Shown: one piece after another, positions 8,685-64,000 of the stretch
Layout: every line of letters begins with the position of its first letter
Position numbering within the stretch: the stretch's first letter is position 1
NCBI RefSeq assembly: GCF_001721645.1
Contig: NZ_CP017141.1
Location: 4,092,001 to 4,156,000 of the forward strand
Direction: 5' to 3'
From: Pedobacter steynii
Lineage (GTDB): Bacteria; Bacteroidota; Bacteroidia; Sphingobacteriales; Sphingobacteriaceae
Length of the DNA: 64,000 nt
Program-made: the position numbers and the translations under genes
The notes under the pieces: generated by a model
The model's input: the letters and a program-made list of their open reading frames with translations, nothing else
Databases searched by the model: none
Told to the model about the DNA's origin: nothing

Positions 8685-11600
8685 ATGCCTACCCATTGTA
8701 TGTCAGAAAGAACTCTTATTCGAATGTTGCAGCGTTGCGCCGAACTGAAATCGGTTGGCGTGACTTTTATTGAAGATAGTGTAAAGGAAGATTTCTTATC
8801 CTATCATCAACTTTATGAGGAAGCGTTGAAGGTCCTCGCTATTTTTCAGGAAAAAGGTATAGAGCCCGGTCATGAACTGGTTCTTCAGTTGGAAGATAAT
8901 AAGACATTTATAATTGTTTTTTGGGCTTGCATCCTGGGAGGAATAATTCCTGTTCCTTTATCTATTGGACAGAAAGATGATCATAAGAAAAAATTGTTCC
9001 AGGTATGGTCTGTTTTAAATCATCCTTTTATAATTTCGGGTGATCAGGTATTACAAAAACTAAATGCCTTTGCGCTTGCAGACGGATCAGATGAGCTGTT
9101 TCTTCAGATTAAGAGTAAGTGGATAGCGGTAACTGATATTTGGTCTTCTTCTTCTTCAGGTCGTATTTTTGAGGCAAAGGAAGATGATATTGCATTTCTT
9201 CAGTTCTCTTCGGGTTCAACTGGTCATCCTAAAGGAGTTATCCTTACCCATCAAAATTTGCTGGAAAATATTGAAGCTATAAGTAAGGCTTCAGCTTATT
9301 CAGCCAGTGACTCTATGTTAAGCTGGATGCCTTTAACTCATGATATGGGAATGATTGGGTTTCATATCAATCCGTTGTTTATGCAAATCAATCAGTACTT
9401 GATTCCTACTGATATGTTCGTCAGAAGACCTTCACTTTGGCTGGACAAAGCAACTAAATACGAAGTAAGTATTTTATGTTCTCCCAATTTTGGGTATAAA
9501 TATGTCCTTAAACATTGTTCAGGACTTGAGATAAATAACTGGAATCTCCAAGCTGTCCGTCTTATTTATAATGGAGCAGAACCCATATCTGAGAAACTTT
9601 GTCGAGATTTTTCGGATTTTCTTGCTGTCTATGGTTTGAGAAGAAACAGGATACGTCCGGTTTATGGTTTAGCTGAGGCGACATTGGCTGTTTCGATTTC
9701 CGATCTTGAAGATGAAGTGATTACTTGTTATCTGGATCGGGATAAGTTGAAAACCGGAGATAAGATTACGATCATTAAAAGTAGTGACCACCGGGCTATC
9801 CCAATTGTTAATGTAGGTAAAGCTATTTCTGGTTTTGGGCTCAGTATTACTGATCATGATGGCCTGCCAGTAAAAGAACAGGTAGTAGGAGAAGTCCACA
9901 TCAAGGGAGGTAGTGTTACCACTGGTTATTACAACAATACTTACGAGACAAACAAAGTTGTAATGCCAGATGGCTGGTTTAATACGGGCGATCTTGGGTT
10001 TATGATGAATGGATCATTGTATATAACCGGAAGATCTAAAGATGTGATTTTTATAAATGGTCAGAATTATTACCCTCATGATATAGAGGATGTTGCCCAT
10101 TCAGTAGAAGGGGTTGAACTAAATAAGATCGCTATTGCTGGCTTTTTTAATTACCAGGCGCAAAAAAATGAGGTGGTGGGATTTATTTTTCATCGCGGCA
10201 GTCTGAATAAATTTGTGCCACTTTGTAAGGAGGTTAAAGCATATATCAACAGTAAGACCGGTATTGAACTGGATGCCTTGATCCCTGTAAAGGACATACC
10301 TAGAACTACAAGTGGGAAGTTACAAAGATTCAGGTTGGTAGAGCTTTACCAACAGGGCGAGTACAAAGAAACTGAAACCGCATTAAATTTACTTTTAGAT
10401 GGCGAGGATGGCCAAAGAATCATTCCTGCGGAAACAGAAATTGAGCATCGTTTATTACTGATATGGAGATCATTGCTTGATAGAGTGGATTTTGGTATTG
10501 CCCATGATTTCTTCGAAATAGGAGGTAGTTCTCTAAGAGCAGCTGAAATTGGTATGCAAGTTTATAAAGAGTTTAATGTTGAGTTACCATTTGACATCAT
10601 TTATAGAGAAAGAACAATAAAAGCACTTGCCGTTGTTATTGCTTCTTCAGTAGTGAAGGAGTATCAGGCTATTCCAGTTTCTCCGGTATATCACTCTTAT
10701 CCTGTTTCACCAGCTCAAAGAAGACTTTATTTTGCCTGGGCAATGGATAAAAATTCATTGGCTTACAACCTGCCATCTGCCTTCCGTTTAGCGAACAAAC
10801 CGGATGTGAAAAGAATGGAAGCGGCCATCCGGCAATTAATAACCAGGCATGATTCACTTCGTATGACTTTCTTGTTTATTGATGAGCCGGAATTTAAGAT
10901 AAATGAACAGATCGATTTTATTTTGAAAGTCAGGGAATCGAAGAAAGAAGAAAAGACCGAAGAATTATTGAAGGACTTTGTCAGACCTTTCGATCTCACA
11001 TCAGGTCCATTATTCAGAATAGAGTTATTGAAATTAAGTACAGGATATTTATTGCTTACTGATTTTCATCATATCATTTCTGACGGATTATCTGTATATA
11101 AATTTTTAGATGAGTTATTCCATCTCTATCAGGATCATCAACTGGAAAGGCTACCCATTGGTTATAAGGACTATGCTCTCCGGGAATTTGAAAGTAAAAA
11201 TGATGAGCAGGGAGCTATACCGGAAAAGTATTGGCTCGACCATTTGAGTGGGGAAATCCCGGTGTTACAAATGGCAACTGATTTTCCTAGACCCATGATT
11301 TTTGACGCGCATGGTGGCAAGATTAAATTTCAGCTGGATGGCAGTGTTGTTTTGGCATTAAGAAAACTAGCTTTAGCTAATGAATCGACATTACATGTGC
11401 TTTTACTGGCAATGTATAGAATACTCCTTTTTAAATATTCAGGGCAGCAGGAGCTAATTGTAGGTATACCTGTTTCCGGAAGAGATCATCCGGATCTGCG
11501 GAATTTACAGGGAATGTTTGTTAATAATTTAGCACTGAAAGGCCCGCTATTATCAGGGAAAAGTTTTAGAGATTACCTGATAAGTGTAAGAGATTCAACC

Positions 11601-15074: not shown

Positions 15075-15097
15075 AATAATCCCTAACTGAGCTTATA

Positions 15098-18000
15098 ATG
15101 GAAGGAAAAATTAAAAAAACAAATGTCCAGGATATTTTGGAACTGAGTGATATCCAGAAAGGAATGCTATTTCATTTCCTTCATGATACCGGGCAGAATT
15201 TGTACAATATTCAATTGTCTTTTAATATTCTGGGACAATTAGATGCAGACAGGTTAAAAAGTGCATTTAAGCAAGTGCAGAGGAACCATGATGTGCTCAG
15301 ATCAGTCTTTGAATGGGAGAAATCGAAAGTACCTCTACAGATTATTCTTAAAGAATCTGATTTAAATTTTAGTTATCAGGATATTTCCTCTTATGAAGGT
15401 ACTTTGATCAGGCAATGGTCTGCTGATGCTATAGCTAAAGATAGACAGGAGAAATTTGATTTGAGAAACACTCCCTTCAGGGTTAGTCTGATTAAAATTT
15501 CAGCGACAGAATTTATACTTAATATCACCCATCATCATATTCTGTACGACGGATGGAGTACCGGAATCTTACTTAAAGAACTATTTAGCACTTATAATAA
15601 TTTTGAAGCTGAGACGGTAGATAAAGTATCTTATAAACAAGTTTTTCAGGAGCTAAAAGGAAAGTATGACAAAAGTTCATCCGAATCCTTCTGGATCGAT
15701 TATCTAAGTTTATATGAAGTTACTCCGGTATTTGGCCTTAAACCTTTATCTGGAGAATTCACTGAAAAATTAAAAACATATCACTCTGAGTATCCTATTG
15801 ATGCACTGAATGAGTTTTCTACTTCCTCCCGAATTACAAAAGCAGCTGTAATTTATACTGCTTACGGATTATTGTTGCAACGATACAGAGATACTACGGA
15901 TATCGTTTTTGGCACACCTGTTTCTAATAGAAGCTCATCGGTTAAAGGGAGCGGAGATGTAATGGGGAATTTTATCAATACTATTCCGCTAAGAGTATGT
16001 GCTGCAAAGGAAGAATCTTTATCAGATATACTCAAAAAGGTAAATAATGAATTGTTGGATAGGGCAGAATATAGCAGCACTTCCTATAGTGATATCAAAG
16101 GCCTACTTTCTCTGAATCCTGCAGATACCTTGTTTGATTCTATTCTTGTTATTGAAAATTATCCGCTAGATATTGAAGCTATAAATTATAACTCTGCGTT
16201 TGATATTAATCTCAGGTCTGCCTATGGTGATACCGGGATACCAGTTGTGGTTCATGTGTTCTTTAGAGAGAAGCTGGAAATAGAAGTGATTTATCAAACC
16301 CGCTTAGTTAGTGAAGAATTCGTAGAAAGATTTGCGTTTCATTTTAGTCAGGTTATTGAAGCCATTATAAATAGGCCAGATGAGAATGCATTAACCTTTA
16401 ACTATCTGACAGAGGAGGAGACGCAAAACCTGCTTTACGATTATAATGATACAAAAGTAACTGAAAATCAGAAGAATACTGTTTTAGAGTTGTTTAGCGA
16501 CCAGGTCGTTTCGAATCCGGATGCCATAGCGGTTTGTGCCGATAGTAGGGTGTTGACCTATAAAGAGCTTAATACTCTGTCAGACGTTTTTGCAAATCAC
16601 CTCAATGAGGATCATGGTATAGGAACAAATGATATGGTTGGTGTTATTTTGGAAAGAAATGACTGGCTTGTTATTGCTATTCTTGGAATCTTAAAATCGG
16701 GTGCAGCTTTTATACCTATTGATCCAGAGTATCCTGCAGACAGGAAGGCCGCTATACTTGCCGGTTCCGGCAGTAAATTATTGGTCTCAGAAGCATATTA
16801 TGTTTTTGAAAATGATTTTTATGACGGCCCTATATTTATTGCTGATCTGGAATTTGACGAACATAAATACCAGTCCGTGCCACTGAAACATCAGGTTGGT
16901 TGTAATGATCTGGCTTATGTGATTTATACTTCCGGTTCTACAGGTAACCCTAAGGGAGTAATGATAGAACATGGTTCGCTATTGAATTATGTCTCTTGGG
17001 CAGCAAAAAAATATGTCCGTAAAGGAAGGAGTAATTGCCCCTTATATACCTCTATTTCCTTTGATTTAACCATCACTTCTATTTTTATCCCATTGATAAC
17101 GGGAGGGAAAATCCTGGTATATAAGGATGAAAGTATAGATGTTCTGATAAAAAAAGTAATCAATAATCAAGAGTGTGACATCATCAAATTTACTCCATCC
17201 CATCTGAAATTGATAAAGGATGGGGAATTCGATTTGGACGACATTAACCCAAAAGTTATTATCGTAGGTGGGGAGCAGCTGGAAAGCCGACTGGCCATGG
17301 ATATTTATATGCGGTTTAAAGGTAATGCTGATATTTTCAATGAGTATGGGCCAACAGAAGCAACTGTTGGTTGTATGATTTATCAGTTTCATCCTGCTGT
17401 CTTGTCTGAAGTTGTTCCAATCGGAAGACCAATTGACAATACAAAGATTTATTTGTTTGACCAACAGATGAATCCGGTGCCAAAGGGAGTTGCCGGAGCA
17501 CTATTTGTTGCTGGAGCAGGTCTGGCAAGAGGTTATCTTCATCGTGAAGATTTAACAAATGAAAAATTTGTAATGAACCCCTTTGTTGAAGGGGAGCGAC
17601 TGTATAAGACAGGTGATTTAGCTATAAGGATGCCGTCAGGAGACCTCGAATATATAGGCAGGATTGATAGTCAGGTTAAAATCAGAGGATATCGTATTGA
17701 ACTTGGAGATATTGAGCACCATGTAGGGGCCTACCCTTCGATAAAGAATGCCGTTGTAGTAGTATATGATTATCCGGACGGAAAGAATTTATGTTGCTAT
17801 TATACTTCAGAACGTGAAATTGATCAGGAGAAATTAAGATATTTCTTATCGCAAAGGTTGCCTGGTTATATGGTGCCTTTCAATTATATTTTTGTCGAAA
17901 GAATTCCGCTTACGATTAATGGAAAACCAGCTTTAAAATTACTTCCTGATCCTAGAATACCTATAAAATTGCAAAGTTATGTGCCGCCCACTACGGAACT

Positions 18001-21424: not shown

Positions 21425-21434
21425 AAATCTGAAA

Positions 21435-33845: not shown

Positions 33846-33929
33846 TGTTTCCTTAAAATTTACCAGTATAGAATATCCCTTCTTTTTAATGAATAACTAT
33901 TTTTTAGTAAACCTAGAATAAGCAGTGAC

Positions 33930-35558: not shown

Positions 35559-35621
35559 CATTGGCTTCCTATCGACCTACTATCCTGTTTTTTATATTAT
35601 CAATTTAACTAAAATAACCAT

Positions 35622-37478: not shown

Positions 37479-37563
37479 ATCAGTTCAAGAACATACTACT
37501 TGATTTTCCAGCCTTAAAACAAAAACAACGCAGTTCAAGCGATTACACTTTAATAAAAGAACC

Positions 37564-40722: not shown

Positions 40723-40849
40723 ACATCTTCGTCTCTAATTAGTCAGCCTTAGTAGACCAACCTTATTCCAAATTTTAACTAAACATATAGCCCATGGTTG
40801 TTTGTCTCTATGATTAGCAATCGTGGTTCTATTAGAACCACTGAATAAT

Positions 40850-41560
40850 ATGTCTGATAAATCTAAATTGAATATTAAAGCAATTGAAGCCAATAGAAAT
40901 ATTGGTGCAAGATATTATTGGGAGGCCAGATTAGATGGTTTCGAATCCGAGTCTTATTTTAGCAATCCCGATCCGATCAGTAAACTAAATCATAGCGGAC
41001 AGCATGAATGTTTGTTGTCGGTTCCTTTAAATGTTCTTGCAGAATTGGATAAGGTTGCTCCCTCAGCAAAGAGTAAGCACGTCGTGTTTCTTTCCATTTT
41101 AACTGTTTTAGGTTATAAGTTTTCAGGCAAAGATGATGTTTGCATTTTGACTCCTTTTTATAAGGCTGAGATTGCAGAAATGACGAATGAAGTTATTCCA
41201 TTCAGGAGCAGCGATTTTTCTCAGCTTAAATTTCTGGAATTGCTTATTCATACAAAAAGCACACTTCTAAAAGATTTACATCAGGGCAATTACCCAATCG
41301 AGAAAATGTTCAGGCAGGGTTATGATCTACAGTCAGAACCTTCAATTGGATTGCTGGTTGAAGGTCTGCACACTGCCCAGGCATTTCAGGGATTAAATCC
41401 TGATCTCTTGTTTTCTTTCCATATCAGTGATCAGCTCCTGAAAATTAAATATAACAGTAAGCAGTATACGTTATCTTATATTGAATATATCGGAAATTGC
41501 TTTTTAAACCTTCTTTCTAAAGTACTTCTTAACATTCATATCCCTATCCGGGAGATCGAA
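40850..41560 (+). other. C-terminal lobe of a condensation domain (no catalytic motif)
   Basis: The sequence starts at the RYYWEARLDGF motif that normally follows the HHxxxDG half, and continues through HVVFLSILTVLGYKF and VIPFR to the C-A linker. The donor lobe with the catalytic His is absent, and no such sequence lies in the preceding 127 bp. It may be a remnant, or a docking or structural platform for the A domain. Confidence 0.75.
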
Positions 41561-49675: not shown

Positions 49676-49763
49676 TTAAACTAACCCGTAATAATTTAAT
49701 GTATCCCATCTAACAATCGGGATATTTCAAGAGCTGAATTAATAAAAATTTATTTAAATACAG

Positions 49764-52700: not shown

Positions 52701-55700
52701 GAAGATCTAAAATCCGATGGTTATGAGAAAGCAGATGTTATTCACGCATTTGGATTGGACGACTTCCCGGTCTCTTTGGATGACGGGATGTTTCGGGGAT
52801 ATTTAAGTCTTGTTTTCCTAATTAAAAGCTTGTCCGATCATCAGCTTGAGCATGAAAGGAATGTGATGGTTTTGGCTAGCGAAATAGTTAGGATAAATCC
52901 GGATGATCAAATCAATCCAGTAAAGGCCATGCTACTTGGCGCGCTGAAAATTATTTCAGTGGAACACGATAACTTAAACTGTAAGCTCATTGATTTCGAT
53001 AAGAATGATACTCCAGTTAGCTCAATGATTAGAGAAGTATGGTCAAAAAAAGATGGTCAAATTAGCGTTGCTTATCGCAAAAACTCAAGATTTATACCGT
53101 CCATTGCAGCAATAAAGGTAAATGGAGCATTTAAAGACCCACTAAAAAATCAAGGATGTTATTTGATTACCGGTGGTTTAGGAGGAATGGGTTTATCAAT
53201 TGCTCATGACCTTGCTTTAAAAGAAAAAGCAAAACTTACGCTAATTTCCAGACGTGATTTTCCAATCGAAAGTGAAAGAAAAGCATGGGTAGATAAATAC
53301 GGAAAAGAAGATGTCATCAGCAGAATTATTTATCAGATCTGGGATATGGAAAGGAATGGTGCTGAAGTTCTTGTAATTTGTGCTAATGTGGCTGACAAAT
53401 TACAGATGCAGCATGCAATTCGTTTGGCTGAGGGGAGATTTGGAAAGATTAATGGTCTGATTTGGTCAGCTGGAGTGATAGATTACGATGGCGTTATACG
53501 GAGAAGAACCCGGGACCAATTTATTGATAATATAAAGTTGAAGGTTCATGGACTTTTGATTGCTGAACAATTGTTGAACTTTGATGAACTTGATTTTATT
53601 GTACTATTTTCTTCTGCGGGAAACTTGTATTATAAAGAGAAGTTTGGACAGGTTGCTTATAATGTTGCTAATGAGTTTACCGACGCTTTTGCAAGAAGTA
53701 ATGATGCCAAATACAGGATATCGGTCATTAACTGGTGTGACTGGAAAAATGCGGGGATGACTGTCGATGGGCTTAAAAAGAGGGATGCGGGTATTACTCA
53801 GGAAGATATCAATACTTTTCTTAAAGATGGACTTACGAATGAAGAAGGTGTTAAGGTTTTCCGCCATTGCCTGACAAATCCTGAATCTGCCTACATCATT
53901 AGTAAAAAAAATCTCACCGGTTTTTATAACCAAAAAAATGAAGAACAAACTGAAAAAGTTGAGGTTGTCGATCTTATTGAAAATTCATTTGAAAGACCTG
54001 AACTCATTACACCGTTTATAGCGCCTTCTACAAAAACAGAAATCCTTTTATCAAACCTATGCTGTACTCTTTTCGGTTTGAATAGAGTGGGGATCAATGA
54101 TGACTTTCTTGAATTAGGTGGTGATTCTTTAAAAGCAGTAAAATACATCAATCAAATAAAAAAGGAACTGAATGTAAGAATCTCTTTGGGAGACTTCTTT
54201 AGTAATCCAACAATCCTGCTGCTTTCAAAGGTGATTAATTTAAAACTTGATCCTGGAGAAATATCTGAAACAGATCAGCAACAAGCGGATTTATCTGATA
54301 ATTGTCTCTTACTACCTGCTCAAAACAGGATATTCATTCTAGACAGATTGAATCCATTACAGACCATACACAATCAGATTTTTACTTTTAAAACCAAACC
54401 TATTTCTAAAGCAAAATTGAATTATGCCATTGGCTTACTGATTGAAAAACATGACGTTCTTCGCGCCTCTTTTGATTTGGAGGGAGCGTATCCAAGTCAA
54501 TCTTTCGGGAATCATATCACAGCTGAAATAGAAAATTACTCTATTCTGCAGGAAGATGAACTTGATGCAATTATGAAGCAGTTTGAGCGTCCTTTCAATT
54601 TATCAGTGCCCCCTCTTTTCAGAATCGGATATGTTACAAATACTTCCGGAGATGATTTTTTGTTAGTTGATATTCATCATATTATATCAGATGGTGTCTC
54701 CAACAAAGTCTTTCTGACTGATTTATTCTGTTCTTTAGATGGTGTAAAATCAACGGAAAAAAGTAGCGACTTCAGATCTTATATTCATCAGTTTTATGCT
54801 GCTGAAATGCAGGAGGAAATAAAAGCCGAGGAACAGCATTGGTTAAATAAATTTAAAGATTATAGTCAACTCAATGGACTGATGCTCGATCATCCCCGAA
54901 AAGCAAATGATCAGAAGACAGGAAAAAGACACAGATTTACAATTCCTGCCGATCTATCACTGCTCGCCATCAACGCAGCTAAGAATGAAGGCGTAACTTT
55001 ATTTACTTATACCTTGTCTGCTTTGTACGTATTGTTGAGGAAGCTGACCGGAGAGTCCGAAGTGATCATTGGTACCACTCATTTTGGCCGGGATATTATT
55101 GGATTTGAAAATACAATGGGGATGTTTATTGAAACTATCCCACTCAGAAATACGATTGATGATGAAATGGTATTCCAGGTCTTCCTGAATCAGATAAAAA
55201 ATAATACTTATGAGGACTTTGACAACAGAAAGTTTCCATTTGAAGAGCTGATCGCCAAGCTAGAATTGCCAAAAGACAGAAAAAGAAATCCTCTTTTTGA
55301 CGTCGTATTTTCTTCTGATAATATTGGAGAAACCGTGGTTGAGCAGCCTGATCATCACACCGTATTGAACTACGTTGAACATGGTAATGTCAAAGTAGGA
55401 TTTGATTTATTATTCACTTTTAGTTTGCACCAAAACGAACTGAGTTTCTGTTTCGAATATAACTCAAGTTTGTTTGAAGAACAAACAATATCACTTTACA
55501 GCGCTTATTATAGGCATATTTTACATCAGATTTTAGAAAAACCCAATCTTCAGATTAAAGAGGTTAACCTATTGTTGCCCAACAATGAGGAAAGTTATCC
55601 TGATATGGTATTAAGAGGTAAAGAAACCGTTCAAACCAGCGCATCTCTTATTTTTTCTGAATTCTGTAAAGTTGCAGAGGAAGCAAAAGATAATATCGCT

Positions 55701-57416
55701 ATTCACTTCGATGGAAGACAAATGACTTACGGCCAGTTAATCAAAGAAGTCAATAAGCTTTCTGATTATCTGATTGATAGTTGTAACATCAAAGAAGGAG
55801 ATCGTGTTGCCATATATCTGCCTAAATCAGCTTACCTCATTATAGCAATCCTGGCTTCCATTAAAAGTCGGGCTGTCTTTGTTCCAATTGATATCTCCTT
55901 ACCGGAGGAACGGGTAAAATATATAATGGAAAACTCAGCTGCAAGCGTTGCACTTACGTTGGCTGATTATATGTTTGACCTGACTTATTTCCAGGGGACT
56001 GTATTTTGCATGGATATTCAGTTAGCGGAATTACCGGTCAATGATGAACGTGTATATCAAGGAGAGTTAACCGATGGCGCTTATATTTTATTCACCTCAG
56101 GTTCAACTGGTTATCCAAAAGGCGTGAAGGTTGCTCAAAATAGTCTTGCTAATTATATCAGTTGGGCCAATGAGTTTTACTTTGATCAGCAGCAGTTTGA
56201 CCTCCCTTTATTTACCTCAATTTCTTTTGATTTTACACTAACCAGTATTTTTTCTCCATTATTAAGGGGAGCTGCGGTGTATGTATTTAGTGATGACCAC
56301 GCTGTTGACGATTGTTTGAAAAAGATATTTCAGTCCGATATAAAAGCTGTTAAGGCAACGCCTGCACACATCGATATGCTGAGTTCTTTAAACCTTACCA
56401 GTACTTCTTTAGATATTGTTATTCTAGGAGGAGAGGAACTTTTGCCGAAACAAATTTCATTCCTGAAACAGCTGAATAGGAATATCCGGATATTTAACGA
56501 GTATGGCCCTACAGAAGCTACCGTGGCCTGTACTGCTATTTTAATAGAGGATGAGAATGAATTAATTACGGTAGGTTCTCCTGTTGATAATACACAGATT
56601 TATATTCTTGATGAACAGTATAATTTGTTGCCGTCAAATGTTCCTGGCGAAATTTTTATTGCCGGAGGATGTCTGGCGGAAGGGTATTTGAATGAAGAAA
56701 ATACCCGTATGAGTTTCATTGAGCTTCCTACCGATCCTAAAGTAAGAGTTTACAAGTCCGGAGATAAGGGGCTTTTAAATTCCGCCAACAGATTAGTATA
56801 TATGGGTAGAATCGTTAAGAATGATCAGGTAAAGATTCGTGGATATAGGATTGAACTGAAGGAAATTGAAAAAATATTCTCTGAAATTGAAAATGTTGAC
56901 AGAGCGATTGCTTTGGTAAAAAAGCTAAATAATGAAGATACGTTAGTCGCTTATTATTTAGCAAAAGAGCGTCTGGATGAAAGAAAGATAAAAGCAGTGT
57001 TGACAAGGTACCTGCCAAACCAAATGATTCCCGGAATAATCATCTGGTTAAAAGAGTTTCCGATTAATATTAACGGAAAGGTCGATTATAATTTATTTCC
57101 CGATCCGGTGATCAAGAAGAGCAGTTCTTATATCCCTCCTGTGTATGAAATAGAAATAAGACTCGTGGAGATCTGGTCTGATGTCCTGAATATTGAAAAA
57201 GAGAATATCGGAGTAAATGACGGTTTTTTTGCGATGGGAGGTAATTCACTGAAGGTTGTTCTGTTGAGTCAGAAAATAGAAGATGCATTTGGTATATCCA
57301 TTCAGGTCGCTGAACTATTTGACCATGACACGATAAACACTTTTATCAATAAGTTTCTGAAAGACTTCAACAAAAATAATGCAACTGTTAACGCGCTTGA
57401 TAACCTAGAAAGTTAA
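49764..57416 (+). CDS. Hybrid PKS-NRPS subunit: KS-AT-KR-ACP-C-A(Asn-like)-T
   Basis: A 2550-residue hybrid. Approximate residues: ketosynthase 5-430 with the full Cys-His-His triad (TACSSSL near 179, ETHGTAT near 314, KTNIGHL near 354); acyltransferase 515-830 (GHSIGEY near 621; HAFH near 719, the malonyl-type motif); ketoreductase 1120-1315 (TGGLGGMG near 1136; catalytic Tyr-Asn in AYNVAN near 1300); ACP 1415-1490 (GGDSLK near 1453); condensation 1505-1940 (HHIISDG near 1638); adenylation 1959-2450 (Asn-like code); carrier 2465-2535 (GGNSLK near 2492). It extends the peptidyl chain by one malonate, reduces the ketone to a beta-hydroxyl, and adds an Asn-like residue. There is no dehydratase, enoylreductase or methyltransferase, so a statine-like unit results. 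Confidence 0.92.
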   Translation: MAKSDVNGLEIAIIGYSGKFNNCVNAEEYWNKLFNGEETFHNYSNEELAESGIAEDIYNSSSYVKVKGVLQDKECFDPQFFGYTPAEANIMDPQIRIFHEIVWSGLEMAGCSPEKTNKRIGLYASASDNNLWQSIMSLSGNPDSGELETSYLSNKDHLCSLVSYKLNLKGPAIFTQTACSSSLVAVHQAVRALLTGDCEIAVAGGVSASLLDKGGYQYQENLIFSSDGHCRAFDSGADGTLKGEGGGVVILKKYKDAVKDGDTIHAIIKGTSVNNDGSDKIGFTAPGIQGQRRVIKSALQLAGVDPNSITYIETHGTATRLGDPIEFKALNDGYGQTGSHRSPIGSVKTNIGHLDSAAGIASLIKVILMMKYRKIPASLHFKSPNPEIDFENSSFYVNQELQDWESPYAKLRAGISSFGIGGTNCHIIVEEAVQISEASNNASSSCTINLSAKSSKKLHDAGLLLADHLRNHPSIRLSDLSYTLNCGRTDFNYRTSITASGTEEFVQKLSEKLVVSNIQEKSPGRPHCVFMFSGQGAQYVEMGRDLYEKYPFFRQQMDECFELIKRHHGILLKEEIYRNGNSAELKINDTLYTQLSLFTVSYAMAKFLIAIGIKPDALIGHSIGEYAGAVISEMISLDEAIQIIGKRALLMQNTERGEMYVVFTNEKELKDLLPPDLSIAAINGEEVVVISGNKISMSEFIETLNSKHIIAKKLNTSHAFHSSMMDEILEEYRLFLENYNFKRGKIPLISNISGKFLDTGRDATYWSKHLRDTVLFGDGLKTLIAAGNTHFVEVGPGNQLVKLVEQLMVTETVMPVNTLRTASQTVQDDDLLHQNIAKLWMNGWPVEWSRCYEGMAVKKIPLPIYAFERMRFPLQIDLQKLVGNLYFSYLTPAENSKNWLYESTWTKDESDIQILNPKSEKKNLMVFCDDKGVAELALEKSGIDFNALIKIRIGDRYEKINPLSYVVNCHNLDEYSRLVEDLKSDGYEKADVIHAFGLDDFPVSLDDGMFRGYLSLVFLIKSLSDHQLEHERNVMVLASEIVRINPDDQINPVKAMLLGALKIISVEHDNLNCKLIDFDKNDTPVSSMIREVWSKKDGQISVAYRKNSRFIPSIAAIKVNGAFKDPLKNQGCYLITGGLGGMGLSIAHDLALKEKAKLTLISRRDFPIESERKAWVDKYGKEDVISRIIYQIWDMERNGAEVLVICANVADKLQMQHAIRLAEGRFGKINGLIWSAGVIDYDGVIRRRTRDQFIDNIKLKVHGLLIAEQLLNFDELDFIVLFSSAGNLYYKEKFGQVAYNVANEFTDAFARSNDAKYRISVINWCDWKNAGMTVDGLKKRDAGITQEDINTFLKDGLTNEEGVKVFRHCLTNPESAYIISKKNLTGFYNQKNEEQTEKVEVVDLIENSFERPELITPFIAPSTKTEILLSNLCCTLFGLNRVGINDDFLELGGDSLKAVKYINQIKKELNVRISLGDFFSNPTILLLSKVINLKLDPGEISETDQQQADLSDNCLLLPAQNRIFILDRLNPLQTIHNQIFTFKTKPISKAKLNYAIGLLIEKHDVLRASFDLEGAYPSQSFGNHITAEIENYSILQEDELDAIMKQFERPFNLSVPPLFRIGYVTNTSGDDFLLVDIHHIISDGVSNKVFLTDLFCSLDGVKSTEKSSDFRSYIHQFYAAEMQEEIKAEEQHWLNKFKDYSQLNGLMLDHPRKANDQKTGKRHRFTIPADLSLLAINAAKNEGVTLFTYTLSALYVLLRKLTGESEVIIGTTHFGRDIIGFENTMGMFIETIPLRNTIDDEMVFQVFLNQIKNNTYEDFDNRKFPFEELIAKLELPKDRKRNPLFDVVFSSDNIGETVVEQPDHHTVLNYVEHGNVKVGFDLLFTFSLHQNELSFCFEYNSSLFEEQTISLYSAYYRHILHQILEKPNLQIKEVNLLLPNNEESYPDMVLRGKETVQTSASLIFSEFCKVAEEAKDNIAIHFDGRQMTYGQLIKEVNKLSDYLIDSCNIKEGDRVAIYLPKSAYLIIAILASIKSRAVFVPIDISLPEERVKYIMENSAASVALTLADYMFDLTYFQGTVFCMDIQLAELPVNDERVYQGELTDGAYILFTSGSTGYPKGVKVAQNSLANYISWANEFYFDQQQFDLPLFTSISFDFTLTSIFSPLLRGAAVYVFSDDHAVDDCLKKIFQSDIKAVKATPAHIDMLSSLNLTSTSLDIVILGGEELLPKQISFLKQLNRNIRIFNEYGPTEATVACTAILIEDENELITVGSPVDNTQIYILDEQYNLLPSNVPGEIFIAGGCLAEGYLNEENTRMSFIELPTDPKVRVYKSGDKGLLNSANRLVYMGRIVKNDQVKIRGYRIELKEIEKIFSEIENVDRAIALVKKLNNEDTLVAYYLAKERLDERKIKAVLTRYLPNQMIPGIIIWLKEFPININGKVDYNLFPDPVIKKSSSYIPPVYEIEIRLVEIWSDVLNIEKENIGVNDGFFAMGGNSLKVVLLSQKIEDAFGISIQVAELFDHDTINTFINKFLKDFNKNNATVNALDNLES
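49770..54240 (+). other. PKS module 1 (KS-AT-KR-ACP)
   Basis: The cis-AT module has a malonyl-type AT (HAFH) and a KR with cofactor loop and catalytic residues intact; no LDD motif marks a B-type KR. Extending an aminoacyl chain by one reduced ketide gives a gamma-amino-beta-hydroxy acid. Confidence 0.85.
55637..57113 (+). other. Adenylation domain A11, Asn-like
   Basis: Code D, F, T (FDFTLTS), K (before ATPA), I, G (VILGGE), E, V, A (NEYGPTEATVA), K: DFTKIGEVAK. It differs from A1, A2 and A8 at two positions (L to F, G to A), so Asn is the best guess and a modified Asn is possible. Confidence 0.6.
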
Positions 57417-57466
57417 GCCGAAAACCTATTTACAAATTCACTCAATTAAAAATAATAGTCGATAAA

Positions 57467-60400
57467 ATGGATTTAGATTCTAATACAAATTTTACCGGAT
57501 TGGAAGTTGCAGTTGTTGGTATGGCTTGCAAGTTTCCGGATGCTGAAAATATAAATACTTATTGGGAGAATATTCAGAGAGGCAAGGAATCTGTCAGATT
57601 TTATACCACTGAAGAAGTAATGGAATCTGGGGTAAAATCTGAACTCCTAAACGACCCCAACTACATTAAATCGAATGGTTGTGAGATTGCAGACAGGTAC
57701 GGTTTTGATGCAGAGTTTTTTAATTATACTGCTGATGAAGCGATTTTACTGGATCCACAAATCCGGCTGATGCACGAGTGTATATATAATGCTCTAACCG
57801 ATGCCGGTTATGCTCCTTCTGATTTCAAAGGTAATATTGGCTTGTTTGCCGGATGTTCAGCAAATCCATTATGGGAAGTATTGTGTAATGTTTCCGGTAT
57901 CTCCTCAGAAATCGGAAACTGGTCGGCCAACCATTTTATGAATAAAGATTTCGGGCCAACATTGGTGTCTTATAAGCTTGGACTGAAGGGCCCAAGTGTC
58001 AATGTTGATACGGCTTGTTCTACTTCGTTGGTTGCAGTACATATGGCATTGAAGTCTATTTTATCAGGAGAGTCTGACCTGGCCATTGCAGGTGGAACCT
58101 CGGTCAGCGTAAACAGAAGCATAGGCTATTTATATAAAGAGGGATACATTAATTCGCCGGATGGGCATTGCCGGACCTTTGATGAAAATGCCAATGGCAT
58201 TATTGGAGGAGAGGGTTCAGGAATGATTGTACTTAAATTGTTAAGTAAGGCGATAGCAGATAACGATCATATTTATGCGACGATCAAAGGAAGTGCGATT
58301 AATAATGACGGGAACAGAAAGGGTGGTTTTACTGCTCCCAGTGTACAGGGGCAGATTGAGGTCATTAGAAATGCGCTGAAATTATCGGGACTTGAAGCAG
58401 AGCACATTGGTTTTGTGGAAACTCATGGAACGGGTACTAATCTGGGGGATCAGATAGAAATAGAAGCGTTAAAAAAGGCCTTTGATACTGACAAAAAGAA
58501 TTATTGTTATCTCGGGGCTACCAAGACTAATATCGGACATCTGGATGCTGCTTCCGGTATTGCCGGACTAATTAAAACGATACTTGTCCTTAAGCATAAA
58601 GTGATTCCACCTCTTGTTAATTTTCAAACTGAAAATCCAAAATTAGGAATTGGTAAATCCCCTTTTATCCTTACCAATAAACAAGAAGACTGGGTTTCTG
58701 AGCAACCCAGAAGAGCGGGAATTAGTTCCTTTGGAATTGGCGGGACCAACATACATATGGTATTGGAAGAGCACCTCAGTACTGTTTCAGATAAGGAGGC
58801 CTCTGACGATGAAAAAATACTGATTCTATCGGCAAAAAATAAGATTGCACTGGAATTGATGAAAGAAAATCTCTATGAATATATCCAGAAAAATGAGAAT
58901 CTGGATATGTCTGCCCTGGTTCATACTCTTCAAACCGGAAGGGATCATATGGCCTGCAGATTGAGTGCGGTATTCAGATCCAGGGAAGAATTACTTGATA
59001 TTTTTAAACTAAACGCCTTTAAGAGCGGGCTAGCCATCTCAAAAAATAAGAAAATAATATTTGCATTCCCCGGTCAGGGTATGCAGTATGCAAACATGGG
59101 TAAAGAGCTGTACGCAGAAGAAGTCCTATTCTCTACTGTTCTGGATGAATGTTTTGGTATATTAAAAAGAATCACAGGAACAGATTTCAGTACCGTACTT
59201 TATCCAGATGCAGACGAAAACAGTGAAAAAATCAATGAAACTATAAATAGTCAGCCCATATTATTCAGTTTTCAATATGCACTGGCAAAATTAATGATCT
59301 CCAGAGGCATTCAACCAGACGCATTTATCGGACATAGTATAGGGGAATATGTTGCTGCCTGTTTATCAGGGGTGATTTCATTAGAGGACGCGCTCCGTTT
59401 AGTTTCAAAGCGGGCTGAGTTTATGCAGAATATGAAACCTGGTAAAATGCTTGCTGTAAACTTAAATTGGAAAGAGGTGGTCAAATTTACCTCTCCTTCG
59501 ATTTCATTTGCATCGATAAACAGCCCATTGCACTGTGTATTGTCCGGCACGACGGAAGAGATCATTAAACTGCATGGCATATTTACCGAGTTAAACATCA
59601 ATGCCGGTATTTTAAAAACATCACATGCTTTTCATTCTTTTATGATGCGGGATGCAGCAGAAATGCTGGAAAACGAAATGGAAGATGTCGTATTTCATGA
59701 GCCTCAGATTCCATTTATTTCTAATGTAACAGGAGATTGGATTAAAACTGAAGATTGTCAGACTGCAGTATATTGGGCTAAACAGTTAAAGAGCCCAGTA
59801 CAGCTTGAGAAAGGAATAAGCAAAATACTTGAAGCGAAAGAAGTGATCATTCTGGAGCTGGGACCTGGAAATTCTATAGGGTCATTTGTTGAAAAAAATA
59901 AAGAATTTAAAGAGAGTCATCACGTTCATAGTATTGTAAGACATGTAAATAATCATTCTTCTCCAGATTTAAGATATTTACTGAATAAACTTCGTGACAT
60001 CTGGTTGTCTGGAGTAGACATTAACTGGTCTTCATTTTATAAAAGTCAGGCGAAAATTTCCTTGCCAGGATATGGTTTTACTCATAAAGAATTTAAAATT
60101 GATCCACAAATACTGGATGATTTATTAAGCGGACGTAAGTTAAATGGAGAGACCAATAAAAATGAAGTAGAAAAATGGTTCTATATCCCTGGATGGAAAA
60201 AAAGCACAGCTCATTATAAGCAAAAAAAATTAGATGGAAAATGGTTGATCATAGGTTTCGATGAGCAGCTGATCCGTAATTTTATAAGTCATATCGACGT
60301 TCCTGTGGACAAAGTATACAGCCTGGTGCCAGGTTTATCAGACACGGTCAGCCTGGACAATCATAATGGCTTCAAAATTAATATAGATAATCCAGAACAT

Positions 60401-63400
60401 TACCTTGAATTTGTCGAGCATTTTAATAAGCTAAGTGAGCCGTTAACAATTATTGATCTTTCCTTTTTTACTCCTGAGGATACTTTACCTGCGGCATATG
60501 TGGTTGATTTTGTCTCTTATCATCATTTATTGCATTTAGGGAAAGCATTTGGCCGGTTGACACGCGTACCTGAGGTGTTTTTAAATTGTTTAACTATAGA
60601 TAACTATGATGTTTATGGTTCAGAGCAATTAACATTACGTGCTTCGTATCTTGCCAGTACATTAAAAGTAATCTCTCAGGAGTATTTCTATGTGAAATCT
60701 AAAAATATTGATGTTTCCGCTGCTGAACTATCCGATCTACCAGGGCTTTATAAAAGGATAGGTAAGGAGGTGTCAATTGACTCCAATGAAACTGTCATTG
60801 CCTTGAGAAATTATACGCGATGGATTCCCGCTTATGAGCAATTGAATAAAAATGAGCTGGCTCCTGATTCCAAATTTGAAATTCAGGAGAATTCAGTTTA
60901 CCTGATTACCGGAGGTCTTGGAAATGTAGGTTTTGTTCTGGCAAAATATCTCTGCAGGAAAGGAGCAAGAGTGGCGATCATCGGGAGAACTGAAATCAGT
61001 TCCGGCATCAATAGCTCAGATAGTGAAAAGTTGAAGCGATTCAACCAGCTTAAAGAAATTAAATCTGACGTTTTTTATGTTTCGACTAATGTGGCGGATG
61101 AAAAATTGCTTAATGAAGCAGTTCAGCAGATTGAACAGGAGCTAGGGAACATAGTGGGAGTATTTCATCTTTCGACAGCTGGTTTTTCGCATCATGAAGA
61201 TCATTTGATTAAAGAATTAAGCATAGCTACCTGCAGAGAACAGTTCAATGCAAAATTGAAAGGTGCTGAAAATATTCGTCAGGTTTTTAAGCATCATCAG
61301 GTTGACTTTGTGGTGTTATTTTCTTCTATAGCATCAGTTTTAGGCGGAATCGGTTATTTTGCGTATGCCGCTGCAAATGCTTGTCTGGACCGTATGGCTG
61401 AAATAAATGATGGTGTTGATGCCGTACGGTGGGTTTCCATCAATTGGGATGCATGGGGAACGGAGAATAATGGAGCTGCTGATCTGGCTATTACTGAAAA
61501 TGAGGGTAACCAGGTATTTTCTCAAATGGAGTTATTACTGGGACATGGTCGTCTTGTCGTGTCAGTTCATGATTTGAAGGACAGAATGGACCGTTGGGTT
61601 TTGAAAAAACAGGATTTACCCGATCATAATATTAAAATGCCAGAATTGGAAAGGCCACAGCTTTCCGGTGACATTGACCTTCCTGAAAATCAAATAGAAA
61701 CTGAATTAGCTGCAATCTGGAAGAGCCTATTTGGTTACGATACCATTGGCGTTAACGATGATTTTTTTGAACTCGGAGGAGACTCACTCAAAGCCTTAGG
61801 TCTATTGAATTCAATAAGGCGGAAATTTGAAAAAGAAATTTCATTGGCTGAGTTCTTTAACGCTCCCTCTATCCGGGCGATTGCTTCTCTCATTTCCTTG
61901 TTGGCCGTGAATTCAACCGGGATTAATAAGGCTACTGAAAAGGAAACTTATGCATTGTCCTCTGCGCAACAACGTTTGTATTTTTTATATGAACTTGATA
62001 AAAGTTCATTGGCTTATAATATGCCGCAGGTGGTGAGAATTAGCGGTGGACTCGACCTCATCAGATTCGGCAATACTTTTAAAGAACTCATTTCTCGTCA
62101 TGAGAGTTTACGTACCAGCTTTATCCTAAAAGATGGAGAGGCTTGTCAGCTAGTTGGTGATGGGGCCGGTTTTTCTATAGAAGAGTACAGGATTTCAACG
62201 CTTGAGCTGAAAGAAGTTATCCGTCAGTTTATCCGTCCATTTGATCTGGATAAAGGACCACTCATCCGTATAGGGATAGTTTCGATCGCAGAGGAAGAAC
62301 ATTTGTTGTTGGTGGATATGCACCATATCATTACAGATGGAATTTCTCAGGGAATTTTGATCCGCGATTTCATGCAGCTGTATGAAGGAGAAGAATTACC
62401 ATCCCTGAAATTGCAATATAAAGATTATTCAGAGTGGCAACAAGGTGAAGGTGAGCAGTTACGTATCCGCGAACAGAAAGAATTCTGGTTGGCAGAATAT
62501 AAGGTCTTGCCAGATATTCTTGAGCTGCCTGCTGATTATGCCCGCCCTAAAAAACGCAGTTATCAGGGAGGGACCTATAAGTTTGAACTGGATGAAAAGA
62601 CTACTGCTGCCTTGCGCTATTTAGGCGAGCAGGAAAAGTCAACCTTATTTATGGTCTTGTTGTCAGTATACAATATCTTCCTTGGTCGGCTTGGTAATCG
62701 GGAGGATATCGTTGTAGGAACCCCTTTAGCGGGTCGTCAGCATCCTGAAATTGAAGGTATTATCGGCATGTTTGTGAATACCCTTGCATTACGGAATTAT
62801 CCGGAAGGGGATTTGAAATTTCGTGACTTTTTGAGGAAAGTACGTTCAAAAACACTCTCCTGCTTCGATAATCAAGATTTTCAATATGAAGAACTTATTG
62901 AAGAGCTGAAACTGACACGTGATATGAGTCGGAATCCTTTATTTGAGACCGTATTTTCCTATGAAAATTTTGAAACGGAAGCACTTGAGATTTCCGGGTT
63001 GAAACTCGATGCCTACGATCATGGACTTGGAAGTGCTAAATTTGATTTGTCTTTATCGGCTGTAGAAGGTGCTGACCGTTTATATTTCGGATTTAGTTAT
63101 TCTACCGACCTGTTTACTGAGTCTACAATCGGACGTTTTGCACATTATCTACAGCGTGTGATTAGTGCTATCGTATCAGATCATGATATTCGTATTGCAG
63201 ATATAGATATCTTATCAGAAGAAGAGAAATATCAGCTTTTAAATCAGCATAATCATTCCTCGGTATCTTATCCTGAAGATCGTACTGTGGTCAGCTATTT
63301 TGAGGAGCAGGTAAAGCTTTACCCGGATCGCATTGCTCTGGTAGATCAGGATGTTTCGCTAAGTTATCAGGTACTTGATGGTTTAAGCAACCGGCTTGCC

Positions 63401-64000
63401 CGTGTTCTGCGTAAAGCGGGGGTAGGGCGGAATAGTATTGTCGGTTTGTTAACCGGACGGACACAAGAGACTGTGATAGGGATGCTCGGCATTCTGAAAG
63501 CCGGCGGGGCTTACCTTCCTATGGACCTGGATTATCCTCATGACCGGATCAGTTATCTGCTGGAAGACAGTCAAGCTGTGTTGCTTCTGGTGACTGCAAC
63601 TGACTACCTGGTATCCCATGAGCTAAATACGATGGTTGTTCAGCAGGTTCTTGAACAGGATGAGATCAGCCTTGAAGCTTTACCTTCGGAGAATCTTGCC
63701 GAAGATCTTTGTTATGTGATCTATACCTCCGGTACCACTGGTTATCCAAAAGGTGTACTGGTAGAGCACCGGAATGTTGTGCGTTTATTTTTCCATTCGG
63801 AGCCTTTGTTTGATTTCGGAGCAGAAGATGTCTGGACGATGTTCCATAATCCTTATTTTGATTTTAGTGTCTGGGAAATGTATGGGGCGTTATTGTATGG
63901 CGGAAAACTGGTGATGATCCCCAAAATGGTAGCCCGTGACCCGGGTTCCTATCTTTCCTTACTGGTTTCTCATGGTGTTACGGTATTGAACCAGACCCCT
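57467..64000 (+). CDS. Hybrid PKS-NRPS subunit, 3' truncated: KS-AT-KR-ACP-C-A(Thr)...
   Basis: Open from ATG 57467 to the window end (2178 codons, no stop seen). Approximate residues: ketosynthase 8-430 (DTACSTSL near 182, ETHGTGT, KTNIGHL); acyltransferase 525-830 (GHSIGEY near 623; HAFH near 721, malonyl type); an extended structural region 850-1130; ketoreductase 1140-1320 (TGGLGNVG near 1148; YAAAN near 1300); ACP 1405-1480 (GGDSLK near 1439); condensation 1490-1925 (HHIITDG near 1619); adenylation from about 1938 (SGTTGYPKG near 2089; FDFSVWE near 2132). It repeats the logic of the preceding subunit: one reduced malonate unit, then an amino acid, here Thr by near identity to A5. The start lies 50 bp after the previous stop. 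The ending, including any further modules or release domain, lies outside the window. Confidence 0.92.
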   Translation, partial: MDLDSNTNFTGLEVAVVGMACKFPDAENINTYWENIQRGKESVRFYTTEEVMESGVKSELLNDPNYIKSNGCEIADRYGFDAEFFNYTADEAILLDPQIRLMHECIYNALTDAGYAPSDFKGNIGLFAGCSANPLWEVLCNVSGISSEIGNWSANHFMNKDFGPTLVSYKLGLKGPSVNVDTACSTSLVAVHMALKSILSGESDLAIAGGTSVSVNRSIGYLYKEGYINSPDGHCRTFDENANGIIGGEGSGMIVLKLLSKAIADNDHIYATIKGSAINNDGNRKGGFTAPSVQGQIEVIRNALKLSGLEAEHIGFVETHGTGTNLGDQIEIEALKKAFDTDKKNYCYLGATKTNIGHLDAASGIAGLIKTILVLKHKVIPPLVNFQTENPKLGIGKSPFILTNKQEDWVSEQPRRAGISSFGIGGTNIHMVLEEHLSTVSDKEASDDEKILILSAKNKIALELMKENLYEYIQKNENLDMSALVHTLQTGRDHMACRLSAVFRSREELLDIFKLNAFKSGLAISKNKKIIFAFPGQGMQYANMGKELYAEEVLFSTVLDECFGILKRITGTDFSTVLYPDADENSEKINETINSQPILFSFQYALAKLMISRGIQPDAFIGHSIGEYVAACLSGVISLEDALRLVSKRAEFMQNMKPGKMLAVNLNWKEVVKFTSPSISFASINSPLHCVLSGTTEEIIKLHGIFTELNINAGILKTSHAFHSFMMRDAAEMLENEMEDVVFHEPQIPFISNVTGDWIKTEDCQTAVYWAKQLKSPVQLEKGISKILEAKEVIILELGPGNSIGSFVEKNKEFKESHHVHSIVRHVNNHSSPDLRYLLNKLRDIWLSGVDINWSSFYKSQAKISLPGYGFTHKEFKIDPQILDDLLSGRKLNGETNKNEVEKWFYIPGWKKSTAHYKQKKLDGKWLIIGFDEQLIRNFISHIDVPVDKVYSLVPGLSDTVSLDNHNGFKINIDNPEHYLEFVEHFNKLSEPLTIIDLSFFTPEDTLPAAYVVDFVSYHHLLHLGKAFGRLTRVPEVFLNCLTIDNYDVYGSEQLTLRASYLASTLKVISQEYFYVKSKNIDVSAAELSDLPGLYKRIGKEVSIDSNETVIALRNYTRWIPAYEQLNKNELAPDSKFEIQENSVYLITGGLGNVGFVLAKYLCRKGARVAIIGRTEISSGINSSDSEKLKRFNQLKEIKSDVFYVSTNVADEKLLNEAVQQIEQELGNIVGVFHLSTAGFSHHEDHLIKELSIATCREQFNAKLKGAENIRQVFKHHQVDFVVLFSSIASVLGGIGYFAYAAANACLDRMAEINDGVDAVRWVSINWDAWGTENNGAADLAITENEGNQVFSQMELLLGHGRLVVSVHDLKDRMDRWVLKKQDLPDHNIKMPELERPQLSGDIDLPENQIETELAAIWKSLFGYDTIGVNDDFFELGGDSLKALGLLNSIRRKFEKEISLAEFFNAPSIRAIASLISLLAVNSTGINKATEKETYALSSAQQRLYFLYELDKSSLAYNMPQVVRISGGLDLIRFGNTFKELISRHESLRTSFILKDGEACQLVGDGAGFSIEEYRISTLELKEVIRQFIRPFDLDKGPLIRIGIVSIAEEEHLLLVDMHHIITDGISQGILIRDFMQLYEGEELPSLKLQYKDYSEWQQGEGEQLRIREQKEFWLAEYKVLPDILELPADYARPKKRSYQGGTYKFELDEKTTAALRYLGEQEKSTLFMVLLSVYNIFLGRLGNREDIVVGTPLAGRQHPEIEGIIGMFVNTLALRNYPEGDLKFRDFLRKVRSKTLSCFDNQDFQYEELIEELKLTRDMSRNPLFETVFSYENFETEALEISGLKLDAYDHGLGSAKFDLSLSAVEGADRLYFGFSYSTDLFTESTIGRFAHYLQRVISAIVSDHDIRIADIDILSEEEKYQLLNQHNHSSVSYPEDRTVVSYFEEQVKLYPDRIALVDQDVSLSYQVLDGLSNRLARVLRKAGVGRNSIVGLLTGRTQETVIGMLGILKAGGAYLPMDLDYPHDRISYLLEDSQAVLLLVTATDYLVSHELNTMVVQQVLEQDEISLEALPSENLAEDLCYVIYTSGTTGYPKGVLVEHRNVVRLFFHSEPLFDFGAEDVWTMFHNPYFDFSVWEMYGALLYGGKLVMIPKMVARDPGSYLSLLVSHGVTVLNQTP
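57490..61900 (+). other. PKS module 2 (KS-AT-KR-ACP)
   Basis: All catalytic residues of KS, AT and KR are visible; the AT is malonyl type. It extends the Asn-like residue from the preceding subunit, predicting a second gamma-amino-beta-hydroxy unit. No dehydratase motif is seen between AT and KR. Confidence 0.85.
63250..64000 (+). repeat. Copy 2 of the ~750-bp near-identical repeat (Thr A-domain first half)
   Basis: Partner of 27524-28274 (constant offset 35726, no gaps). It is still identical at the window edge, so the repeat certainly continues to the right. It starts in the C-A linker. Confidence 0.9.
63278..64000 (+). other. Adenylation domain A12 (partial), predicted Thr
   Basis: The visible code residues are D, F, W (FDFSVWE) and N (before QTP), as in the Thr domain A5, and DNA identity to A5 is about 96% over the visible part. 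The later pocket residues lie beyond the window. Confidence 0.8.

Follow-up and report, generated by a model that had tools for sequence, protein, structure and literature searches.

Organization of the locus

A stretch of 64,000 nucleotides from Pedobacter steynii (hereafter the window; contig NZ_CP017141.1, positions 4,092,001-4,156,000, our G000:C1, within a 6.58-Mb single-contig genome) carries a nonribosomal peptide synthetase-polyketide synthase (NRPS-PKS) assembly line that we consider, with good confidence, to make an N-acyl-D-Asn prodrug processed by an export peptidase of the ClbP/ZmaM type. All coordinates given without a contig label are relative to the window. A previous sequence-only reading had described a colinear line of seven subunits with one fatty-acyl-AMP ligase (FAAL) at its start, 12 amino-acid-activating adenylation (A) domains and two PKS modules, each composed of ketosynthase (KS), acyltransferase (AT), ketoreductase (KR) and acyl carrier (ACP) domains. 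Open reading frames (ORFs), Pfam models, genome-wide searches with PF00668, PF00501 and PF00109, and our own domain map bear out all of these counts, the FAAL start, and the predicted order of domains. The description was accurate inside the window, where the twelfth A domain is interrupted by the window end, but fell short in extent. The line extends another 16 kb (L032, L033), for a total of eight subunits, 16 amino-acid A domains, three epimerization (E) domains (two of them inside the window), two PKS modules and a thioesterase (TE), and tailoring and export genes continue to position 87574; the complete locus occupies G000:C1:4100685-4179574. In the following list, C is condensation domain and T is carrier domain.

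8685-15074, plus strand: subunit 1, 2129 residues, FAAL-ACP-C(starter)-A(Asn)-T-E; predicted to build an N-acyl-D-Asn leader
15098-21424, plus strand: subunit 2, 2108 residues, C-A(Asn)-T-C-A(Ser)-T; the first C belongs to the post-D-Asn clade
21414-33845, plus strand: subunit 3, 4143 residues, C-A(DIATIAGVYK)-T-E-C-A(Thr)-T-C(McyA/AmbE type)-A(Gly)-T-C(pre-DARH type)
33930-35558, plus strand: CmlA-family di-iron beta-hydroxylase (PF18456, 3e-97; CmlA 4jo0, 4e-114; metal motif HNHQDH)
35622-37478, plus strand: AsnB-type glutamine amidotransferase with an N-terminal Cys (MCGICGF; TIGR01536, 466 bits, cut-off 267)
37564-40722, plus strand: subunit 4, 1052 residues, A(DARHLSLLIK)-T-C; the constant unit of the cluster family
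40823-49675, plus strand: subunit 5, 2950 residues, half C-A(Asn)-T-C-A(Val)-T-C-A(DSWDIGLIGK)-T
40823-41650, plus strand: the half C, a C-lobe-only condensation-like domain at the N-terminus of subunit 5 (PF00668 positions 194-456 only, 30.1 bits, cut-off 30.6)
49764-57416, plus strand: subunit 6, 2550 residues, KS-AT-KR-ACP-C-A(DFTKIGEVAK, Asn-like)-T
57467-64000 and on to 75958, plus strand: subunit 7, 6163 residues, the first 2178 in the window, KS-AT-KR-ACP-C-A(Thr), continuing beyond the window as C(McyA/AmbE type)-A(DVANFAVVYK)-T-E-C-A(DAEHIGKISK)-T-C-A(Val)-T
75959-80071: subunit 8, C-A(Leu-like)-T-TE
80435-83530: peptidase-ABC fusion
83572-85083 (L033:572-2083): second S12 hydrolase
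85121-86059: TauD-type dioxygenase
86083-86838: Asp racemase
86867-87574: type II TE

The longest open frame in the line is that of subunit 7 (6163 residues), and none of the 15 genes of the cluster has a frame break. The top NCBIfam matches of the FAAL in subunit 1 are fatty-acyl-AMP ligases, with scores under their cut-offs. Both KS domains possess the Cys and two His residues and both KR domains the Tyr and Asn. The two statine-like units proposed earlier, each an amino acid extended by a ketoreduced C2 unit, are supported. The AT domains both carry GHSIGE and HAFH, which we take to mark the malonyl type, and the TE of subunit 8 has the motif GWSLG.

Adenylation codes and predicted residues

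The ten-letter codes come from an alignment to GrsA, whose sequence yields DAWTIAAICK at the ten positions. The amino acid names attached to them follow reference codes and are predictions.

A1: DLTKIGEVGK, Asn, E follows
A2: DLTKIGEVGK, Asn
A3: DVWHISFIDK, Ser
A4: DIATIAGVYK, E follows
A5: DFWNIGMVHK, Thr
A6: DILQLGLIWK, Gly
A7: DARHLSLLIK, DARH unit
A8: DLTKIGEVGK, Asn
A9: DAFWLGGTFK, Val
A10: DSWDIGLIGK, C2 follows
A11: DFTKIGEVAK, Asn-like, C2 follows
A12: DFWNIGMVHK, Thr
A13: DVANFAVVYK, E follows
A14: DAEHIGKISK
A15: DAFWLGGTFK, Val
A16: DAWYLGNVVK, Leu-like

For the modules inside the window these codes agree with the earlier list, and the Asn-rich character of the product is retained. 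The suggestion that residue 4 (DIATIAGVYK) is aromatic was neither supported nor refuted.

The proposed leader module and the peptidase-ABC protein

The first module, FAAL-ACP-C-A(DLTKIGEVGK)-T-E, is predicted to acylate a residue that is Asn by its code, and then epimerize it, which matches the leader of known prodrug pathways. Downstream of the TE lies a protein of 1031 residues that combines an S12 peptidase (PF00144) with an ABC half-transporter and also has membrane segments. Comparison was made across eight clusters, comprising the one described above (cluster A), a second from the same genome (cluster B) and those of six other genomes from the genus (G068, G023, G013, G066, G115 and G598), together with four distant peptidase-ABC fusions. 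Alignment with ClbP shows that equivalents of its catalytic residues S95, K98 and Y186 are kept in all eight cluster peptidases and in all four distant fusions, as are those of the D-Asn pocket residues T188, N257 and N331. Within the membrane region, two Trp in the pattern W-x5-W, spaced as W460 and W466 of ClbP, are likewise found in 8/8 and 4/4, recognized by motif alone. In three other S12 proteins, one from this genome plus L042 and L043, position 188 is Asn and position 331 is Tyr, Ala or Ile. In the portion of PMC9889268 that we draw on here and below, prodrug-activating peptidases are set apart from the wider S12 family by a strictly conserved N331, with Ser or Thr at 188 and His or Asn at 257, and ZmaM-like members are described as bearing a fused ABC half-transporter.

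Because the FAAL-C-A(Asn)-T-E start fits a prodrug leader and the peptidase has the D-Asn pocket residues, the acyl-D-Asn that begins the chain most likely serves as a leader that would be cut off during export. With the leader removed, the term 'acylated peptide' in the sequence-only reading would therefore apply to the precursor, for which it stands, and probably not to the mature product.

The second S12 hydrolase was considered as a cytosolic releasing enzyme, and this was rejected, since visual inspection suggests a signal peptide at its N-terminus. In cluster A this enzyme keeps the catalytic Ser, Lys and Tyr as well as the Asn equivalent to N331, without the remaining pocket residues; taking clusters A and B together, what is kept of the pocket is either N331 alone or N331 with S188.

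The DARH unit and its partners

Nine A domains with the code DARH[LF]S[LF][LM][IV]K occur in the eight clusters, at least one per cluster, with R239 and H278 constant in all nine. Each is carried by a free-standing A-T-C subunit, reduced to A-T in G066, where it comes last. An AsnB with the MCGICGF start is present in all eight clusters, lying directly before the DARH gene in seven and one gene off in cluster B; its nearest relative in PDB is 7ylz, a 'hydroxyamidotransferase', followed by AsnB itself (1ct9). The Asp racemase (TIGR00035, 152 bits against a cut-off of 93) is also found in 8/8. In microcystin synthesis, the modules that activate D-MeAsp and D-Glu through the side chain presumably have D-A/P-R-H codes and rely on a racemase of the Asp/Glu type. 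On the strength of the racemase in all clusters and of these codes, our favoured interpretation of the DARH unit is a side-chain-linked D-Asp. AsnB may amidate the residue held by this unit or may merely supply Asn. Similarity of the DARH A domain to PDB entries singles out no substrate, nor do matches in plasmid records.

At all eight DARH junctions the next subunit opens with the half C domain, about 250 residues corresponding to the C-terminal lobe only, and no such domain was seen in the other 75 ORFs longer than 800 residues that were examined. A structural model of it (pLDDT 74.9) matches C domains, a match that is biased, since the alignment was built from C-domain lobes, and that has no bearing on function. 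That the half C serves as a docking or recruiting partner is our guess.

Condensation domains and probable dehydration

As a test of colinearity, a maximum-likelihood tree was built from the 116 C and E domains of the eight clusters, and the domains sort by predicted job. Starter C domains form one clade (8/8), as do C domains following D-Asn (8/8; SH-aLRT 100 each), those following the DARH unit (8/8) and those preceding it (9/9; support 100 each). The 16 E domains make up a single clade, while C domains after E join those after D-Asn (support 87). All labels on the tree require 32 changes, compared with a mean of 82.0 for shuffled labels (0/200 as low), although counts of this kind are raised by near-identical domains shared among related clusters.

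The C domain following Thr at 29409-30764 finds McyA (143.6 bits) and AmbE (99.9 bits) as its two best PDB matches. For an ordinary C domain of the same line, used as a control, TycC is the top match (385.9 bits), and of 60 matches McyA ranks 37th and AmbE 39th. We take the McyA and AmbE domains to be ones that dehydrate Ser or Thr, and because the C domains following both Thr modules are of this type, both Thr residues probably end as dehydrobutyrine (Dhb). A single clade unites the four post-Thr C domains of cluster A and G068, and those of cluster B, G013 and G066 group with ordinary C domains. The pair in cluster A is nearly identical and the pair in G068 fully so, but the domains of one genome differ clearly from those of the other, a pattern that looks like gene conversion inside each genome.

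The Thr module block is duplicated, with 27525-30929 (plus strand) 98.7% identical over 3,405 bp to 63251-66655, and the G+C fraction is 0.452 in 28001-32000 versus 0.359-0.408 elsewhere in the window. Cluster B has internal near-copies of its own, one of 3,593 bp at 99.8% (6065531-6069123 versus 6087174-6090766) and one of 1,732 bp at 98.6%.

Distribution and conservation of the cluster family

Cluster B, at 6.056-6.109 Mb of the same genome (G000:C1:6056000-6109000), has a FAAL start, AsnB, two DARH A-T-C subunits, a second S12 hydrolase, TauD, the peptidase-ABC protein and Asp racemase. Its last subunit ends at a carrier domain without a TE, and a cupin/JmjC-type oxygenase takes the place of the CmlA-type enzyme of cluster A. 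Common to all eight clusters are the FAAL-C-A(Asn)-T-E start, AsnB, the DARH unit, the peptidase-ABC protein, the second S12 hydrolase and Asp racemase. The order of core modules varies; that of G068, spread over five contigs, equals cluster A through the DAEH module and then has Thr instead of Val.

When queried with the first 789 of the 1031 residues (E <= 1e-60), the peptidase-ABC protein proves rare, found in 6/198 relatives, this genome counted, and in one of 395 genomes sampled evenly across the phylum, namely this one. No full-length relative turned up among plasmid records (0/4 records cover 80%). The DARH unit (E <= 1e-110) occurs in 7/145 genomes of the genus, again with this one included. 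Fusions with the full D-Asn pocket occur in Fulvivirga imtechensis, two metagenome-assembled genomes (MAGs) of Candidatus Aminicenantes and one Acidobacteriota MAG (L038-L041); NRPS domains adjoin the fusion in L039.

Orthologues in G068 share 70-94% amino acid identity, with dN/dS of 0.028-0.117 for 12 of the 15 genes, ratios that are rough given the saturated dS of 1.0-2.3. Subunits 3, 7 and 8 were left out of this comparison, their G068 copies being broken by contig ends. The line is under purifying selection relative to G068. The length of its open frames and this orthology put it well outside the reach of chance.

Hydroxylases

A CmlA-type gene is present in 2/8 clusters and TauD in 6/8 (not in G013 or G066 at E 1e-8). 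The presence of both enzymes in cluster A suggests that some residues are beta-hydroxylated.

Proposed pathway and alternatives

In the proposed pathway, FAAL would load a fatty acid onto the ACP, and module 1 would add and epimerize Asn to give the acyl-D-Asn leader. The line would then add Asn, Ser, a D-configured residue (DIATIAGVYK), Thr, probably converted to Dhb, and Gly. Next would come the DARH unit, probably a D-Asp from the racemase that is linked by way of its side chain, followed by Asn and Val; a residue X with a KR-reduced malonyl C2 unit; an Asn-like residue with another; and the second Thr, probably again Dhb. A further D-residue, an unassigned residue, Val and a Leu-like residue would complete the chain, to be released by the TE. 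The exporter's ABC half would carry an inactive precursor across the inner membrane, where the periplasmic S12 peptidase would cut after D-Asn, freeing the mature and putatively bioactive peptide and leaving acyl-D-Asn behind. The mature product is probably an Asn-rich peptide that bears no acyl group and contains two statine-like units, two dehydrobutyrines and one unit of the D-Asp type.

Several observations weigh against this interpretation. When PDB entries are ranked by the score of the whole domain, Flp (4gdn, 1e-54) stands nearest to the peptidase, with ClbP second (1e-47). The equivalent of ClbP E92, a residue that orients N331, is Gln in five of the eight peptidases, including that of cluster A, and Glu in three, including that of cluster B; leader specificity may be looser as a result, because E92Q ClbP also accepts D-Asp. 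This position is reported as highly but not strictly conserved, and the E92Q variant as retaining D-Asn cleavage while also admitting D-Asp (PMC9889268). Both second S12 hydrolases tested, one from cluster A and one from cluster B, share the Asn at position 331, so that this residue does not discriminate by itself. As for the DARH unit, three spellings of the microcystin MeAsp and D-Glu codes behind its assignment were not found in print.

An ordinary acylated lipopeptide was dropped as the end product, since the pocket residues and the leader module speak against it. We think it unlikely that the line makes a true lipopeptide, one that retains its acyl-D-Asn, with the peptidase-ABC protein acting in export, in immunity or in some other cleavage. 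The second, periplasmic-looking S12 hydrolase conserved in 8/8 clusters and the Gln at position 92 would fit such a product, and, in the portions of the two papers used here, the characterized Pedobacter NRPS products, the cryopeptins (PMC12181424), are lipopeptides and the chitinopeptins of Chitinophaga (PMC9248904) are lipodepsipeptides. The leader module and pocket residues nevertheless match the prodrug type, and they are constant in all eight clusters while the middles of the lines vary. A much more serious doubt concerns the DARH residue, which could quite conceivably, though we lean the other way, be another acidic or polar residue that AsnB and its neighbours convert on the carrier, for example to an amide or hydroxamate. 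The position of AsnB next to the DARH gene and its resemblance to 7ylz speak for this, whereas its passing the general asparagine synthase model TIGR01536 means that it may only supply Asn, and the Asp racemase in every cluster favours D-Asp. It seems very improbable that the product is a compound described before, with genes that escaped our search; subscription journals are thinly covered in the literature searched, but no such Bacteroidota product appeared there, and 34 Pedobacter NRPS clusters lacked a MIBiG 2.1 match in the part of PMC12181424 used. Least probable of all is a decayed or silent relic, against which stand the 15 unbroken genes, the intact catalytic motifs and the low dN/dS of the 12 genes compared with G068.

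A broader picture, which we offer tentatively and regard as rather doubtful, is that one Bacteroidota genus makes a family of megapeptides that mask themselves and have a constant warhead at their core. This warhead would be a carrier-bound, side-chain-linked D-Asp modified by AsnB, and by TauD where present, and installed by a plug-in A-T-C subunit with specialized flanking C domains and a half C partner; the rest of the peptide would vary, with the acyl-D-Asn mask and export peptidase fixed.

Should the prodrug interpretation hold, export-coupled activation also drives a very large peptide-polyketide family in Bacteroidota, with two clusters in one genome, and the chemist's target would be a de-acylated extracellular peptide plus free acyl-D-Asn rather than a lipopeptide. 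The conserved leader, the DARH/AsnB unit and the half C domain offer handles for mining the family and probing the split module junction.

Comparison with known systems

The zwittermicin, edeine and paenilamicin pathways resemble this line in their acyl-Asn-E start, in the fusion of a ClbP-like S12 peptidase to an ABC half-transporter (ZmaM, EdeA, PamJ) and in the pocket residues, but differ in the order of core modules. To our knowledge, their clusters contain no DARH A-T(-C) unit, AsnB, Asp racemase or half C domain. Colibactin (ClbN/ClbP) and xenocoumacin/amicoumacin (XcnG/AmiB) share the leader-peptidase logic and the catalytic residues. Unlike the protein described here, ClbP, XcnG and AmiB are without a fused ABC transporter (PMC9889268, in part), and the product chemistry is unrelated as far as the modules show. 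The phyla named for export-coupled prodrug peptidases in that portion of PMC9889268 are Firmicutes, Proteobacteria and Actinobacteria. Likeness to microcystin synthetase is seen in the post-Thr C domains, which score best against McyA, and in the racemase of the Asp/Glu type (McyF in microcystin synthesis). The A-T-C unit is free-standing here, unlike in microcystin, and the D-A/P-R-H codes may be a further likeness. We know of no prodrug start in the microcystin pathway.

The chitinopeptin clusters of Chitinophaga are also large Bacteroidota NRPS lines with a CmlA-like hydroxylase and an ABC transporter, but their products are described as lipodepsipeptides with Dap, N-Me-Val and beta-OH-Asp and a C-starter or PKSI start, which sets them apart (PMC9248904, in part). 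The sections of that paper covered mention no FAAL, statine-like units or prodrug peptidase. Among the 34 multimodular Pedobacter clusters reported in PMC12181424, none matched MIBiG 2.1, and pedopeptin was added by hand; the word 'prodrug' is absent from its main text. Among the papers listed, from literature in which subscription journals are thinly covered, there was no prodrug-type NRPS from Bacteroidota and, as the sequence-only reading had it, no Bacteroidota product matching the predicted sequence. What is new here is probably a prodrug-type line of known logic in Bacteroidota with a different core, in which the producer would protect itself by masking, as in colibactin and zwittermicin.

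Flanking genes

The following genes lie upstream of subunit 1.

4882-5400, plus strand: NusG paralogue, UpxY-family antiterminator (NF033644, 133.4 bits, cut-off 100)
5544-8090, minus strand: TonB-dependent-receptor-like outer-membrane protein (PF14905, PF00593)

The NusG paralogue is a candidate read-through factor for the long operon. Two of the four NusG-family genes in the genome are located at the two prodrug-type clusters (4882-5400 and G000:C1:6108069-6108578), and a NusG homologue occurs in the stretch around each of the eight clusters, upstream in some and downstream in others. A siderophore role, inferred from the neighbouring TonB receptor, was dropped as lacking evidence. Several unrelated genes lie further upstream, among them one of the streptomycin adenylyltransferase family (PF04439) at 1-485. 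Elsewhere in the genome, further KS and NRPS domains at G000:C1:3767703-3773635 and 6277137-6286156 suggest two more PKS or NRPS-PKS loci.

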